DNA of 39,298 nucleotides from a virus. Location of the stretch: IMG/VR virus record IMGVR_UViG_3300007538_000067, positions 1 to 39,298 of that record. The stretch is one strand, 5' to 3'. A program made the translations under genes and the position numbers. Shown piece by piece: positions 2,604 to 32,293 of the stretch; position 1 is the first letter of the stretch; every line of letters begins with the position of its first letter. The notes below the pieces were generated by a model. It was given only the letters and a program-made list of their open reading frames with translations. It was not told the DNA's origin and searched no databases.

Positions 2604-4825
2604 TTCGATTTGAAGTGCAGAATGGAAATCTTGTTCCCATCGAGGAACAAGGTAACTCAACACAAAATTATATTGCCAAAGAGATTGCCAATAGGCTTAA
2701 TGGTGTTTCTACTGGCGTAACAGATTACAAGTCTTTAATGAAAGCCTTGGATGAGCAGTTGTCCAAAGGTAATTATTACTACAAAGATTACGTTGATGAC
2801 CAAACAATTAAAGAGATTGAAGATTTTTATGTGAAAGCAGCCGGAATCAAACCTTGGGATTCAAGCAAGCAAGGCTCTGATATCACCAAGTTTGACTCAA
2901 AATTTTATTCTGGTCTGGTGCCAGATAAAGTACAAAGCTGGAAGGACGCATCAAAAAGTGTTTCTTTCGGCGGCAAAAAAATTCCTGACGTAGATATTAC
3001 GCGTACGTACACAACATTAGACGATTATCTTCACTCAGACTATACTTTTGTTGGCGCGCCAAGTGGACTACCTGGTACTAAAAGAGAATTTGATACGTAC
3101 ACAGAAACGCTGAGAGCTCCGACAAATCAAGAACAACAAATTTTAAGAGAAACAATTTTAGGTAAAACGGCAGACAAGCCTGAGTCATTGGCCGAGTTGG
3201 CCACACAAGATTTTGTTGACAAGCAAGGTGAGCGGGCGTTTGGCGCTTTAACGACTGATGTTTTAAAACAAACACTAGACGAATATAAACGTGCAATTAA
3301 ACAAGAGCAGATGGCAGACATCCTCCAGGGGATGGGGATGCCTAATGTCACTGACTTTAAGTCCGATATCAAGAATGCAATCCTTGGTGATCTTGGCGGT
3401 GGTGGTTTCCTTAGCCTAAGTAAAGACTCCAAATTTGGTAAAGGACTCTCCGAAAGCCTTGACAAGAGTCTTGGTATGGGCTCTTCTGTCTCTTATAACT
3501 GGCAGAAGTGGTTTGATGAAACCCTGGCAGAACGATACAAAAACATGAGTGAAATTGCGGATCCGGAAGATGCGCAAAAAACATATGCACTTGAACAAAA
3601 ATTTGTTAATGATTTTGTCAATGATTACTTGAAGCCTCGCTTTGACACATCTAAGTCAATTACTGAATTCATCAGTTATATGGATGTAAAAGAAGATGAG
3701 CAAAACGTTCTTCAGACACAGTTGGTTTCTAGTGCTTTAAAAGACTTTGCCAATAAACAAGCACAGACGTATATCGATGGCTTACGTACAGCATCCACAA
3801 CGAAAGAGTTTGATCCTAAATTTTATTGGAACCCCGAACTAATTTCTGGTACAGATGTAACTTCCAAGCAAAGCCTTTACCAACAACAGAAGGAAAATGT
3901 GCAATCAGCTTGGGATGCACGCGAATCAGACCAAGCAGTAACCGATGGTAAAACATGGAACCAATTAGCATATGAATATGGAGTTGATTTAAACAATAAG
4001 GATGATTTTGCTCGGCTGCACTATCAAGTTCTTGGGAAAAACAAAGGATATGACCCTGTTGCAGACACCTATACACGACAAGACTTAGCTGATTTTATTC
4101 AGAATGATCTAGCCAAAGCATTGGAAAGTGAGAAGGCGTCCTTTGGCAACCCAATTTTTGCTGAGTTTGTATCTGCTGAATCCAAGGCAGCAGAGCTTGT
4201 TGACAAGATGAATGTTGCTGGTTTATCTCCTGAGCTTCAAGATAGACTTAAAGGACTTGGCATGAGTACCAAGGATAATCCAGTTGATCAGATCAAAGAA
4301 GCCTTGACTCAAATTTTGAGCACTGATCCGGCGGCTGAGATGCGAGAACGTATCCGTCAGCTCAATGAACAACGCATTAAACCAACACAGAAAGAACTTG
4401 GGTACGGATATATCCAGCGTGATACAGACGAGGAAATTACACCGCCCGCTGGCGGAAGCGCACTGTTTAACGTCTTTAAGAAAGCTGGTTATGGCGGAAC
4501 GGAATCAGAATTCTATACAGAGTTTTTTCCTGATGCAACAGAAGAAGATAAGAGTTTAAGTGCAGCTGATGTTGGAAAAGCTTCCACAAAAGAAGGTGCT
4601 ATGAGCCTCTTGGGCTTTAGTATGCCAGATATGTCAGATCCTTTTGCAGCCATTGGGTCACTGGGTTCAATGCTTGATACAGACGACACAAGCAAAGCAG
4701 AGACTTATACACCCAAGCGTTCTACTTACTTTAAGTATTTTGAAGATGAAGAAGATGAAGGTGCGCCTTCCTATTTTAATATGGGTACAGGAAGTAGCTT
4801 TGGATCGTTGCTTGGCTCTATCTGA
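2600..4825 (+). CDS. Large unknown protein, 741 aa, possibly virion-internal
   Basis: The start overlaps the HNH stop (ATGA) and the stop overlaps the next start. The protein is hydrophilic, charged and mostly helical in character, with many Lys/Asp/Glu and repeated DxxKxF-like stretches but no clear catalytic motif. The C terminus is acidic and then Gly/Ser-rich (EDEEDEG, GTGSSFGSLL). Length and low-complexity tail would fit an internal virion or tail-associated protein encoded beside structural genes. I do not recognise the family. Confidence 0.7.
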   Translation: MIRFEVQNGNLVPIEEQGNSTQNYIAKEIANRLNGVSTGVTDYKSLMKALDEQLSKGNYYYKDYVDDQTIKEIEDFYVKAAGIKPWDSSKQGSDITKFDSKFYSGLVPDKVQSWKDASKSVSFGGKKIPDVDITRTYTTLDDYLHSDYTFVGAPSGLPGTKREFDTYTETLRAPTNQEQQILRETILGKTADKPESLAELATQDFVDKQGERAFGALTTDVLKQTLDEYKRAIKQEQMADILQGMGMPNVTDFKSDIKNAILGDLGGGGFLSLSKDSKFGKGLSESLDKSLGMGSSVSYNWQKWFDETLAERYKNMSEIADPEDAQKTYALEQKFVNDFVNDYLKPRFDTSKSITEFISYMDVKEDEQNVLQTQLVSSALKDFANKQAQTYIDGLRTASTTKEFDPKFYWNPELISGTDVTSKQSLYQQQKENVQSAWDARESDQAVTDGKTWNQLAYEYGVDLNNKDDFARLHYQVLGKNKGYDPVADTYTRQDLADFIQNDLAKALESEKASFGNPIFAEFVSAESKAAELVDKMNVAGLSPELQDRLKGLGMSTKDNPVDQIKEALTQILSTDPAAEMRERIRQLNEQRIKPTQKELGYGYIQRDTDEEITPPAGGSALFNVFKKAGYGGTESEFYTEFFPDATEEDKSLSAADVGKASTKEGAMSLLGFSMPDMSDPFAAIGSLGSMLDTDDTSKAETYTPKRSTYFKYFEDEEDEGAPSYFNMGTGSSFGSLLGSI

Positions 4826-25951: not shown

Positions 25952-26797
25952 ATGGATCTAACACTTTACGGCGGCACCGGAATCATTGGTAGTTACTACC
26001 GTGGCATGTACGGCGGAGAATATGTGCCCCGTGGATATGCAGTCCCATTCACGGAAGATGTTTTATACCTAATTAGTACCACCGACAACTCCAATATCCA
26101 TACCAATCCTCAGCTTGACATTCACACAAACCTTACGGTGTTAGCTGATCACTTGGCACACTGTAAAGACTTTGGCGTCAAGACATTTAACTTTGTCAGC
26201 AGTTGGTTTGTTTACGGACCCAAATATACCAAGCCTACGGAATATGCCATCTGTGATCCCAATGGTTTTTATTCTGTAACTAAGTATGCAGCCGAGAAGT
26301 TAGTTATGGAGTACTGCCAGGCTCATGATATGAATTGGCGTATCTTACGTCTTGGAAATGTTTATGGTGGCCCTGATAAGGGTACAGAAAAGCGCAATGC
26401 CCTTCACCGTATTATTCAATTCTTAAGAAAAGATAAAGATATTGAGGTGTATCGAGGCTTGTCTCGTGACTACATTCACATCCAAGATGTGTGTCGAGGC
26501 ATCAACCACGCATGTCGCAAAGGAAATCTCAATACCATCTACAACATTGGTACTGGGATTGAGACCACGCTTTTTGACTGCGTTGAGTACTGCAAACAAT
26601 CTTTAGGTTCAGACAGCAAAATAACTATCATCCCCGCCAAAGGTAGTTATAATCAAGCCATCAGGTTTAGCTTGGATTGCACCAGGCTTTTCAACCTTGG
26701 CTATACGCCTTGCATATCCCTTCGTGATGGGCTGGAAGATTTATGTCACGCTCAAAAGTTTTGTACTCCGGTCCGTACTTTGACGGGACCGAAGTAG
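25952..26797 (+). CDS. SDR-type NAD(P)-dependent sugar epimerase/dehydratase
   Basis: The 281-residue product has the Rossmann GGTGIIG (7-13), FVSSWFVYG (81-89) and catalytic Tyr107/Lys111 in YSVTK, then RILRLGNVYGGPD, all typical of extended SDR enzymes on nucleotide sugars. It is short for the family but complete. It overlaps the following dehydrase by 55 bases, implying tight co-expression. A role after 3-dehydration, such as reducing or epimerising a keto sugar, is inferred from context. Confidence 0.85.
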   Translation: MDLTLYGGTGIIGSYYRGMYGGEYVPRGYAVPFTEDVLYLISTTDNSNIHTNPQLDIHTNLTVLADHLAHCKDFGVKTFNFVSSWFVYGPKYTKPTEYAICDPNGFYSVTKYAAEKLVMEYCQAHDMNWRILRLGNVYGGPDKGTEKRNALHRIIQFLRKDKDIEVYRGLSRDYIHIQDVCRGINHACRKGNLNTIYNIGTGIETTLFDCVEYCKQSLGSDSKITIIPAKGSYNQAIRFSLDCTRLFNLGYTPCISLRDGLEDLCHAQKFCTPVRTLTGPK

Positions 26798-27999
26798 AGG
26801 CTGCAATCTCCACCTTACGTGAAGGAGCTTGGTACCCAGCGGGCAAGGAGGTCGATAAATTTGAACGCGCTTTCTCCAAGAAGTTTGGGTTTACTTCATC
26901 TCTTATGGTGAACAGCGGCAGCTCTGCCAACTTGGTAATGATTGCTGCGCTGAAAAAATATTTTGATTGGCCGGATGGCGCTGAGGTTATTGTCAGTGTT
27001 GTTGGGTTCCCGACCACCGTCAATCCAATTATTCAGAATGGCCTGACTCCTAAGTTTGTGGATATTACATGGGATGATTTGAATTGGGACTTAGATCAAG
27101 TAGAAGATGCGATCACGGACAAAACCGTTGCTGTATTCAGTAGCCCTGTTTTGGGTAATAGTTACGATCTGGATCGTCTACTCGATATCTGTGATGCGCA
27201 CTCCATCCTTTATGTAGCAGACAATTGTGATTCCCTTGGCTCTAAGTGGGATGGCGAGTATCTGACAAAGTATGCAGCCGCTGCATCTTGTTCATTTTAT
27301 CCGGCGCACCACATCACAACCTTTGAAGGGGGTATGGTCTCCTCTAGTTTCCCTGGATTGACAGAGCTCGCTCGTCAGTTTGCTTGGTGGGGACGCGACT
27401 GTTATTGCGTGGGCCAGTGCAACCTACTTGCCAATGGCTCTTGTGGTGAACGTTTCAAAGCATGGCTACCTGATTATGACGTGGTTATTGATCACAAGTA
27501 TGTATTCAGCCAGATTGGTTACAACTTAAAGCCGTTGGATCTACAGGGTTCCGTCGGTCAAGTACAACTGGACAAATTTGAGGAAATCCACACAATTCGC
27601 CGTCTTAACTACAAGACAATTGTGGATTATTTTCAGGACTACCCTGCAGAAGTTAAGATCATTGGCGAGAAACCTTTAGCAGAAACCTCGTGGTTTGGTG
27701 TGCCAATTGTATGTGACAACCCAAATGTTAAACAGGCTTTACAACAGCATCTCGAAAGCTCTGGTATCCAGACACGCAACTACTTTGCTGGCAATCTCCT
27801 GTTGCATCCAGCTTATCGACATCTTGGTAATGCCAAAGATTTTCCCAATGCTTATGACGTACTCAAGCGCGTCTTTTTCTTGGGTACATCACCGTCTCTT
27901 TCTTATGATGACCTGCATTATGTAGGGAAAACCATCCATGGCTTCCTGGTAAACACACCAGTTAAAGCTGATGGCTATAGCTATTGTCTTGATCTATAG
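26743..27999 (+). CDS. E1/RfbH-type nucleotide-sugar 3-dehydrase (Fe-S, PLP-fold)
   Basis: The DegT/DnrJ fold is clear, but the catalytic Lys is His189 (SFYPAHH), as in ColD and E1 3-dehydrases. Cys162, Cys220 and Cys222 fit C-X57-C-X1-C, and a further Cys234 falls where the fourth [2Fe-2S] ligand of E1 lies, with a 4-residue insertion (X11 in place of X7). WWGRDCYC, ERFKAW and DHKYVFSQIGYNLKPLDLQ match RfbH/DdhC. The enzyme removes the 3-hydroxyl of a CDP-4-keto-6-deoxy sugar, a step toward 3,6-dideoxyhexoses. Its reductase partner is not in the window. Confidence 0.88.
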   Translation: MSRSKVLYSGPYFDGTEVEAAISTLREGAWYPAGKEVDKFERAFSKKFGFTSSLMVNSGSSANLVMIAALKKYFDWPDGAEVIVSVVGFPTTVNPIIQNGLTPKFVDITWDDLNWDLDQVEDAITDKTVAVFSSPVLGNSYDLDRLLDICDAHSILYVADNCDSLGSKWDGEYLTKYAAAASCSFYPAHHITTFEGGMVSSSFPGLTELARQFAWWGRDCYCVGQCNLLANGSCGERFKAWLPDYDVVIDHKYVFSQIGYNLKPLDLQGSVGQVQLDKFEEIHTIRRLNYKTIVDYFQDYPAEVKIIGEKPLAETSWFGVPIVCDNPNVKQALQQHLESSGIQTRNYFAGNLLLHPAYRHLGNAKDFPNAYDVLKRVFFLGTSPSLSYDDLHYVGKTIHGFLVNTPVKADGYSYCLDL

Positions 28000-29838: not shown

Positions 29839-30042
29839 ATGTCGAGTGACAAAGCAATTCAAAAGGGTTACACCAAGCGTTACTTGCCAGAGAAGGCCTG
29901 GGCTTCACTGTCTAAAGAAGAACGTGAGGAGACGGATCAAAAGAAAAGAGCTGGTAGCCGCCAAGGTAAACAGTTTATTCCGAACACAGAAAAAGCAAAG
30001 AAAGCCGGTCGAGCAGCCCGTCGATACCGCTCAGGTTCTTAA
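29839..30042 (+). CDS. Small basic protein resembling a DUF5872 C-terminus
   Basis: The 67-residue product has YTKRYLPEKAWASLSKEERE, then KKRAGSRQGKQFIPNT and an Arg-rich end. I know this order as the C-terminal half of DUF5872-type proteins; here it is free-standing. Its likely role, binding nucleic acid, is inferred from charge. It ends the plus-strand accessory run. Confidence 0.65.
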   Translation: MSSDKAIQKGYTKRYLPEKAWASLSKEEREETDQKKRAGSRQGKQFIPNTEKAKKAGRAARRYRSGS

Positions 30043-30063
30043 TTGTCTTGATATACTGACGTG

Positions 30064-30196
30064 GGGCAATACCGCCCTGGAGTAAATAGTCGAACTACTC
30101 CTTCAAGTAACGTACGTAACTCACGGCTTAGAACCGAAGGACTAACGTTTGAGCAGGAAGGAACACAACCCCGGCTTGATACACCGGGGTTTTTTG
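30064..30196 (+). ncRNA. Candidate small structured RNA with its own terminator
   Basis: A TATACT box at 30052-30057 would start a transcript near 30064. The region folds locally: GGGC/GCCC (30064-30075), GGAGTA/TACTCC around a short loop, and CGG/CCG. It ends in a strong terminator. One frame is open but runs through the terminator, so a protein is unlikely. No known RNA family is recognised. Confidence 0.45.
30168..30196 (+). terminator. Rho-independent terminator
   Basis: ACCCCGG (30168-30174) and CCGGGGT (30184-30190) form a 7-bp GC-rich stem, followed by six T counting the last stem base. It stops transcripts from 24298-30042 or the small RNA. Confidence 0.9.
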
Positions 30197-30203
30197 TTAT
30201 ACT
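30176..30203 (+). promoter_or_regulatory. Promoter: TTGATA, 16 bases, TATACT
   Basis: TTGATA (30176-30181) and TATACT (30198-30203) are close to sigma-70 boxes with 16-base spacing. The -35 box lies in the terminator loop. The transcript would start near 30210 and run through the structured region, tRNA-Pro and perhaps the HNH gene. Confidence 0.55.
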
Positions 30204-30209
30204 CAATAT

Positions 30210-30586
30210 GTTCCCCCTCTCTTTTGATGGGGCACCCAACCACCCATACTGCTCTGTCGGTATGGTCCAATCAGTGGGGGTTGCTTGATCCAAGCATCTG
30301 TACTAGCTGATTTGGGTATAGAGCCCAAGCCTCTGTCCAGTCCTTGAGGCTGGTCACGTTTGGGCCATCAACAACACCCCTCAAGCTTAGCTTGATAACG
30401 AGGACGGCTTTACACTGTGCGCACAGGCTTGCAGGCATCTTCACCAGTTATCAATGATGCTCAAACAGAGGGGTCACTCATTAAGGGTGCAACAAGGAAC
30501 GTTGTATTAAACGAAGGATCCCCTCAGCCACATCGTAGAGGCCGAAGTCAAAAGGCATCGTAGGTGGACATCCTCGCCCTTAACAC
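30210..30586 (+). ncRNA. Candidate large structured RNA upstream of the tRNA
   Basis: About 377 bases without a credible ORF hold many potential stems. Local: CATAC/GTATG nested in CAACC.../...GGTTG (30238-30290); TTGGG/CCCAA; AGCCTC/GAGGCT; CAAGC/GCTTG; the palindrome CTGTGCGCACAG. Nested: GAGGGG (30469) with CCCCTC (30510). Long-range: TTAAGGG (30481-30487) with CCCTTAA (30578-30584), closing just before the tRNA. CATCGTAG occurs twice (about 30530 and 30557). Size and position next to a phage tRNA recall the GOLLD/ROOL type of ornate large RNA, but I cannot confirm that by consensus. Confidence 0.5.
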
Positions 30587-30660
30587 CGGGGATTAGCGCA
30601 GCTTGGTAGCGCAATTGCTTTGGGAGCAATGGGTCGCAGGTTCAAATCCTGCATCTCCGA
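30587..30660 (+). tRNA. tRNA-Pro(UGG)
   Basis: The full cloverleaf is visible: acceptor CGGGGAT/ATCTCCG, D stem GCGC/GCGC, anticodon stem ATTGC/GCAAT around TTTGGGA (anticodon TGG), T stem GCAGG/CCTGC with TTCAAAT loop, discriminator A. C1-G72 is a bacterial tRNA-Pro trait. CCA is not encoded. It would read CCN-type proline codons in phage messages. Confidence 0.95.
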
Positions 30661-30734
30661 TATCGAGAATCTTAATAAATTGCGTTTATTGGAAATCCTG
30701 ATAAATTATATTTACGTGTGCACAAAAACTATAC

Positions 30735-30989
30735 GTGGCCTGGGCTGACGCCAAAAAACGTATCGATAAGAATCGACAAAAGCTCCTGGAGTACAAGAAG
30801 ACTTTGCAGTGCGAGAAGTGTGGGTTGGATGATCACCGTGTCCTTGAGTTCCACCATATAGGTGATAAGGACAATAACATCTCATCCATGGTGAACCACG
30901 GCTACTCCTGGAGCAGAGTAGAAGCAGAAATTGAGAAATGCATTCCGCTTTGTTGTAATTGCCACAGGCTTGAACACTGGTCTAATTAA
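30735..30989 (+). CDS. HNH endonuclease, small phage type
   Basis: The GTG start gives 84 residues with CEKCG (Cys26/Cys29), LEFHHIGDK (His40/His41) and CCNCHRLEH (Cys73, Cys74, Cys76, His77). This is a common minimal HNH nuclease of phages. It follows the tRNA, a usual place for mobile nuclease genes, and overlaps the convergent metalloprotease-like gene by 8 bases. Confidence 0.85.
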   Translation: MAWADAKKRIDKNRQKLLEYKKTLQCEKCGLDDHRVLEFHHIGDKDNNISSMVNHGYSWSRVEAEIEKCIPLCCNCHRLEHWSN

Positions 30990-31729: not shown

Positions 31730-32293
31730 TTAACCATTGCGTAGCGTTGCCTTAATAAACCATGCTGCTTTGAAGGCTTCACCAACAAGCTCAGCCATGT
31801 AGTTCTGGATGTCTACAGCACCTACCTTGGCAGCAACAGGCTCCAGCTTTTTAGCTTTCATGCCAAGCTCCTCAAGGTTTTTGTAGTAGGTGCCGAGCAT
31901 CTCTTGTGGTTTATAGCTGGTGCAGTGCTTGAACTCTGGGCTTGCGTCCATCAAACCGTTATGACACATCGGAAGTAAGTAGTCCATGGAACGGACAAAC
32001 TCACCGATTTTATCGAATTGATCTTGATGTGCTTCGTATTGCTTGCCAAGGAATTTATGAACACTCAAAAAGTTTGAGCACTCATAATTGAAATGCAGGA
32101 GATGAGATTGGACCTGGAGCTGATGGACATATGCCATCAAGCTAATTAGCTGTTGGATGAAGCTACCAACATTGTTATTACCCTTGGACTTGCCAGGTGC
32201 TTTGGGTTTTGCCTGTGGTTGTGGCACCACTTCAAGTGTGAGGGGTTGCTGCAATTTCGGCGCTTCGGGACCAGGGGTATACATAGTTTTCAA
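31730..32293 (-). CDS. Dps/ferritin-like protein
   Basis: After a Pro/Gln-rich 42-residue N-terminal arm, residues 45-187 follow the Dps fold. His67, His79, Asp94 and Glu98 keep the 12/15/4 spacing of His51, His63, Asp78 and Glu82 of E. coli Dps, and QFDKIGEFV matches the DxxxE ferroxidase helix. The fifth ligand, Asp67 in E. coli, is Gly83 here. The end segment WFIKATL matches the usual last helix. Dps cages bind DNA, take up iron and detoxify peroxide. Phage copies are unusual. The neighbours are unknown virion-type genes. Confidence 0.8.
   Translation of the reverse strand: MKTMYTPGPEAPKLQQPLTLEVVPQPQAKPKAPGKSKGNNNVGSFIQQLISLMAYVHQLQVQSHLLHFNYECSNFLSVHKFLGKQYEAHQDQFDKIGEFVRSMDYLLPMCHNGLMDASPEFKHCTSYKPQEMLGTYYKNLEELGMKAKKLEPVAAKVGAVDIQNYMAELVGEAFKAAWFIKATLRNG

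Follow-up and report, generated by a model that had tools for sequence, protein, structure and literature searches.

Positions 30210-30586 of the window, by which we mean the whole 39,298-nucleotide stretch of viral DNA analysed here, form a string of at least six separately folded RNA modules, arranged in the order E-C-I-D-A-B and followed by a tRNA-Pro. The source of the window is a freshwater cyanobacterial virus, which agrees with the freshwater phage setting beside a phage tRNA proposed by an earlier, sequence-only reading of this DNA. The region brings at least two RNA families with good support that Rfam does not contain (modules B and D), of which an unpublished or uncurated description may exist, as well as a long-loop branch of abiF RNAs that current models miss. 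It lies at a single phage locus where structured RNAs are exchanged as parts.

The region is non-coding. The sequence-only reading had counted about 377 bases with no credible ORF, and the ORFs inside are indeed short (at most 57 aa on the region's strands), the lengths of the elements are independent of frame (those of B, D and A occupy all three) and the pairs covary; a coding region was rejected on these grounds. The tRNA-Pro(TGG) that had been named as neighbour lies directly 3', at 30587-30660 (+), identified by tRNA calling and an Rfam match. Apart from tRNA, no Rfam family was above threshold in the window, in keeping with the suggestion of a class outside known families. The folding energy of the whole stretch was only slightly better than that of shuffled sequences (z -1.77, 4/100; reverse strand z -0.71). 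This global signal was too weak and was dropped as proof of structure, so the case for structure rests on comparison. The search for compensatory changes in homologues, in which an absence of covariation had been set beforehand to count against the idea, found conserved, covarying helices in modules A, B and D, and the proposed structured RNA region was thereby borne out. G-U pairs outnumber their other-strand image, A-C, by 23:0 in B, 32:1 in D and 4:0 in A, which fixes the + strand as the RNA strand for these modules.

Upstream of the region lies the putative promoter TTGATA-16-TATACT, whose sequence is present as had been described. Its -10 box, TATACT (30198-30203, +), is supported by comparison: a TATAAT-like hexamer with 5 or 6 matches stands exactly 6 nt before the GTTCCC hairpin of module E in 34/36 homologous versions and 7 nt before it in one further version, making the start site common to 35/36. 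From this shared spacing, the transcript very likely begins with module E, at a predicted start position of 30210. The putative -35 box, TTGATA (30176-30181, +), is unsupported, since it is part of the hairpin that terminates an upstream RNA, and the sequence at this place differs in most homologues. That upstream RNA (30058-30197) is a second, separate one with its own terminator (CCCCGGCUUGAUACACCGGGGUUUUUU), just upstream of the island. Its CAATACCG element was found in 29/62 homologous versions, and the hairpin stems of this element show a compensatory difference in locus L006 (GGGC..GCCC / GAGC..GCUC).

BLASTN of the region matched pieces but never the whole, a mosaic which indicates that the region is built of parts. 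Scanning viral contigs by pattern and by protein returned 29, 6, 59, 10, 80 and 80 loci, partly overlapping. Between an upstream 67-aa ORF (phrog_14910) and a downstream HNH gene we distinguished 62 versions of the island, 310 to 2310 nt long, in which simple patterns recognize about 44 different module strings; so many strings between the same flanking genes define an RNA island of interchangeable parts. The same simple patterns give minimum counts for the modules in these versions: E in 36, D in 34, A in 22, B in 21, J in 11, G and the tRNA-like P in 10 each, H in 7, C in 6 and I in 4. Their order is roughly E-(H,G,C,I)-D-A/B-tRNA, realized in the window as E-C-I-D-A-B-tRNA-Pro.

Module E is the 5'-terminal hairpin GUUCCCCCUCUCUUUUGAUGGGGC (30210-30233, +), which recurs in 36/62 versions and shows a compensatory C-G to G-C swap (CCCCC..GGGG / CCCGC..CGGG) in five of them. 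Module C, the hairpin CCAUAC-UGCUCUGUCG-GUAUGG (30234-30266, +), recurs in homologous loci, with the loop unchanged and the stem changed in L036-L040, L076, L077 and L084. Module I, AAUCAGUGGGGGUUGC..GCAUCUGUACUAGCUGAUU (30268-30316, +), recurs in L083, L102 and L114. All three are found across phages, with fewer examples than A, B and D.

Module D (30317-30369, +) has the form (G)AUAGAG-N7-..CUG..CAC-N7-CCAUC, ranges from 38 to 81 nt across phages and contains a covarying 7-bp helix (30324-30330 with 30358-30364). In 35 distinct sequences 99.4% of the helix cells were paired, compared with 23-35% in slid controls; as the sequences are related, such cell counts, here and below, do not equal independent events. 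Compensatory changes occurred in 6/7 helix pairs, with types including UA/CG/GC and CG/GC/UA, and the search pattern had set the flanks, not the helix. Module D is also present in phage S-CBS2 (L005), where BLASTN of 30318-30369 was weak (E=0.4). It had no match in Rfam.

Module B (30481-30583, +; model R1 hit at 30485-30579) is 80 to 123 nt long, follows the consensus GGGUACAACAAGGAACGUUGUAUUAAAYGAAG...GCCC and folds into four helices, P1 (GGG/CCC), P2 (UACAAC-AAGGAAC-GUUGUA), P3 and P4, with an apical loop that tolerates inserts of up to 43 nt. The 7-bp long-range pair noted previously is present, a few bases off the reported 30578 (TTAAGGG at 30481-30487 with CCCTTAA at 30577-30583), and is the closing helix of this module. 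MAFFT, run independently on 17 distinct sequences, gave an alignment in which all cells paired, with compensatory changes in 5 pairs. In the alignment of 63 copies (34 distinct) from the model search, which was fitted to the model, 100% of pair cells were standard and 9/20 pairs, located in P2, P3 and P4, showed compensatory changes; controls with partners moved by 1 to 3 columns paired at 35-46%. The invariance of the core is partly by design, since the search patterns required it, which does not apply to the changes in P3 and P4. A pairing of the loop GGA with UCC was considered as a candidate pseudoknot, and a CsrA-like GGA hairpin and anticodon-loop mimicry were entertained as possible readings of the module.

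Each phage record carrying module B has a single copy. A tRNA starts within 10 nt downstream in 39/63 copies, and tRNAs within 300 nt are all on the same strand (96/96). BLASTN detected parts of it in DSL-LC03 (30479-30539) and S-CREM1 (30483-30539), and the published table of S-CREM1 non-coding RNAs is without it (PMC9964418). The module had no match in Rfam, the region that includes it had none in plasmids, and 0/149 other Microbacteriaceae genomes contained it. Three genome-bin hits were considered as host copies and rejected: two lacked an R1 match, and the third was L043, whose contig has 24 tRNAs around module B and encodes HNH endonucleases of phage type.

Module A (30373-30477, +) is a long-loop abiF-type RNA, a form previously undetected. 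It has the 6-bp outer stem of abiF RNA (30377-30382/30468-30473), the A bulge and the 3-bp inner stem (AGC/GCU, 30384-30386/30459-30461), both stems pairing in the alignment, together with the abiF single strands (CAAA bulge, final U and flanks ACAC...GUCACU). An inner-stem pair varies (U-A / A-U in A4, G-C in L037). Its ends, ACACCCCUCAAGC and GAUGCUCAAACAGAGGGGUCACU, match letter for letter those of the canonical abiF RNA in phage contig L015. The canonical 11-nt terminal loop CUCUCAACGAU is absent, and about 72 nt forming an apical helix (30392-30399/30447-30454; fold z -2.6) take its place. The Rfam abiF model (RF03085) missed module A and the long forms tested or scored them below threshold; because both the loop and the score depart from the family, we call module A abiF-type with a changed loop rather than a plain RF03085 member. 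Loops of phage abiF-type RNAs measure 11, 22-23, 56-58 or 72-73 nt, a series linking the forms in which the L070 loop (CUAUC-hairpin-AUGAU) looks intermediate, although the search behind this series required pairing and is not counted as a covariation test. In an alignment of 23 long forms chosen with no pairing requirement, 97.1% of abiF-stem cells were paired (slid controls 43-65%), with compensatory changes in three pairs. The module with its 3' edge (30373-30480) is 92.7% identical by BLASTN to Synechococcus phage S-EIV1.

The abiF RNA (RCd22 in C. difficile, PbAbiFr) is the antitoxin of AbiF in a type III-like toxin-antitoxin system and has been linked to the origin of Cas13. With module A it shares the double stem, bulges and flanks; the differences are a 72-nt loop with its own helices as opposed to 11 nt, the lack of a detectable AbiF gene and the setting in an RNA/tRNA island. 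By binding the AbiF HEPN RNase directly it neutralizes this enzyme, either in cis or in trans (PMC12373285; PMC12737573), and RCd22 binds AbiF and neutralizes it in trans (PMC12373285). Canonical abiF RNAs share cyanophage tRNA arrays with module B (S-CREM1, L015, L044, L050 and L053), and the S-CREM1 authors had already noted abiF in a cyanophage (PMC9964418). No Abi_2 toxin gene was detected in the window or in 35 related phage records, most of which carry an abiF-type RNA and four of which are complete annotated phage genomes. The phage RNA thus appears to lack a toxin of its own that it would hold in check, and an antidote against host AbiF is its simplest reading. As the long loop alters the conserved CUCUCAACGAU, AbiF binding may be lost or retargeted.

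The reading that we prefer, and consider probable if only just, is that one promoter (-10 at 30198) drives a precursor running from hairpin E through C, I, D, A and B into tRNA-Pro, which would yield small RNAs and the tRNA. Nucleases that process tRNA would free the tRNA, and cuts in the short linkers would free the folded modules; the involvement of tRNA-processing enzymes is suggested by the way the modules abut tRNAs. Module A, which retains the CAAA bulge and the double stem of abiF, would act as a solo antitoxin that binds and blocks host AbiF-family HEPN RNases during infection. B and D, which are unrelated RNA families, would be decoys against other host RNA-centred defences, as might the remaining modules; for B and D this is a guess by association, from the shared locus and B's abutment to tRNAs. 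Decoys against differing host defences could explain why phages swap modules at this locus. In escape from the type III system ToxIN by a pseudo-antitoxin RNA (PMC5449768), the phage provides an RNA mimic of the antitoxin in trans; for module A mimicry is conjectural and the target would be AbiF instead of ToxN. Phage tRNAs that evade tRNA-cleaving defences (PMC11555353) are likewise small RNAs whose set varies at a single locus in the phage, and both they and the island are thought to answer host defences that cleave RNA, although the island modules, except for tRNA-Pro and the tRNA-like elements, are not tRNAs.

Alternatively, the region might be one large ornate RNA of the GOLLD or ROOL type that functions as a single unit, such as a cage or scaffold. 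The sequence-only reading had raised this possibility, and the neighbouring tRNA, the freshwater type of the phage, the multiple helices and the single promoter would suit it. However, GOLLD, ROOL and the other Rfam 15 models gave no match to 29840-30760 up to E=5, and many GOLLD RNAs exceed 800 nt, compared with 377 nt here from start site to tRNA. The modules are short, separable and found alone, reordered or in other combinations in other phages, where B mostly lies in ordinary tRNA arrays. Membership in GOLLD or ROOL was rejected for these reasons, and a single large RNA is very unlikely. GOLLD and ROOL are, like the island, phage RNAs found near tRNAs (PMC12286853), but the island is far shorter and modular rather than one fold. 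A cis-acting leader, with riboswitch-like control of the tRNA or of the downstream HNH gene, is unlikely too. The predicted transcript from 30210 heads toward both, and the RNAs manA (RF01745) and wcaG (RF01761), which accompany B and abiF in cyanophage tRNA arrays (S-CREM1 L004, L053, L050), are filed as cis-regulatory (PMC2864571). Yet the modules sit between tRNAs with no fixed downstream gene, the tRNAs after them vary (Pro, Leu, Met, Val, Thr, Ala), and module ends showed neither a ribosome-site switch nor a terminator switch. Both manA and wcaG differ from the island modules in sequence and structure, and their Rfam models had no match in the window. In L053 the manA RNA (1596-1806, -) occupies precisely the space from tRNA-Pro to tRNA-Ile, a fit that suggests a standalone processed RNA and not a leader.

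We regard as similarly improbable that the modules are structured spacers, stabilizing the precursor or insulating the folding of the tRNA with no partner of their own. Hairpin E at the 5' end, the short abutting linkers and the broad tolerance of apical insertions would fit such a role, for which the invariant or nearly invariant single strands of A (CAAA bulge), D (AGAG, CCAUC) and B (AAGGAAC loop, AUUAAA) would be needless, even if this invariance is partly due to search design. Least probable of all is a phage-borne toxin-antitoxin unit that targets competing phages and has its toxin encoded at another place in the genome: abiF RNAs are normally found with the abiF toxin gene (PMC12373285), whereas Abi_2 is absent from the records surveyed above, complete genomes included.

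If module A, as in our preferred reading, neutralizes AbiF, phages would carry RNA-only antidotes and each other module could serve as bait for a host toxin. More tentatively, and with doubt outweighing belief, the island may be an RNA-only counter-defence cassette, a fixed freshwater cyanophage locus with interchangeable antitoxin mimics (long-loop abiF, B, D and others), each against a different host toxin inhibited by RNA. B and D would then be pointers to host toxin systems that await discovery.

At the locus we also saw other candidate modules recur (G, H, J and K), in L100/L124 (a GACTGACGCCTCC element), L135/L184 (G and H) and L139/L120 (J). Ten versions contain a tRNA-Pro-like element, CGGGAUGUAGUAGAAAAGUAUCAC...UUUGGGA...CAUCCCGA, that lacks a normal T arm (GGUUC absent) and is possibly a tRNA mimic (L094:3693-3763; also L088, L090, L129 and L184). 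Another tRNA-like element directly follows module A in L074:6454-6525(-), L075:9129-9201, L076:4573-4643 and L077:3379-3451; ARAGORN reads only a two-base anticodon for it, and none was called in S-EIV1 (L002, ~3109-3180). Phage contig L036 carries a glutamine-II riboswitch aptamer barely over threshold (4002-4052). Elsewhere in the window, the phage encodes a DegT-type aminotransferase (26743-27996) and a ferritin/Dps-like protein (31733-32293).
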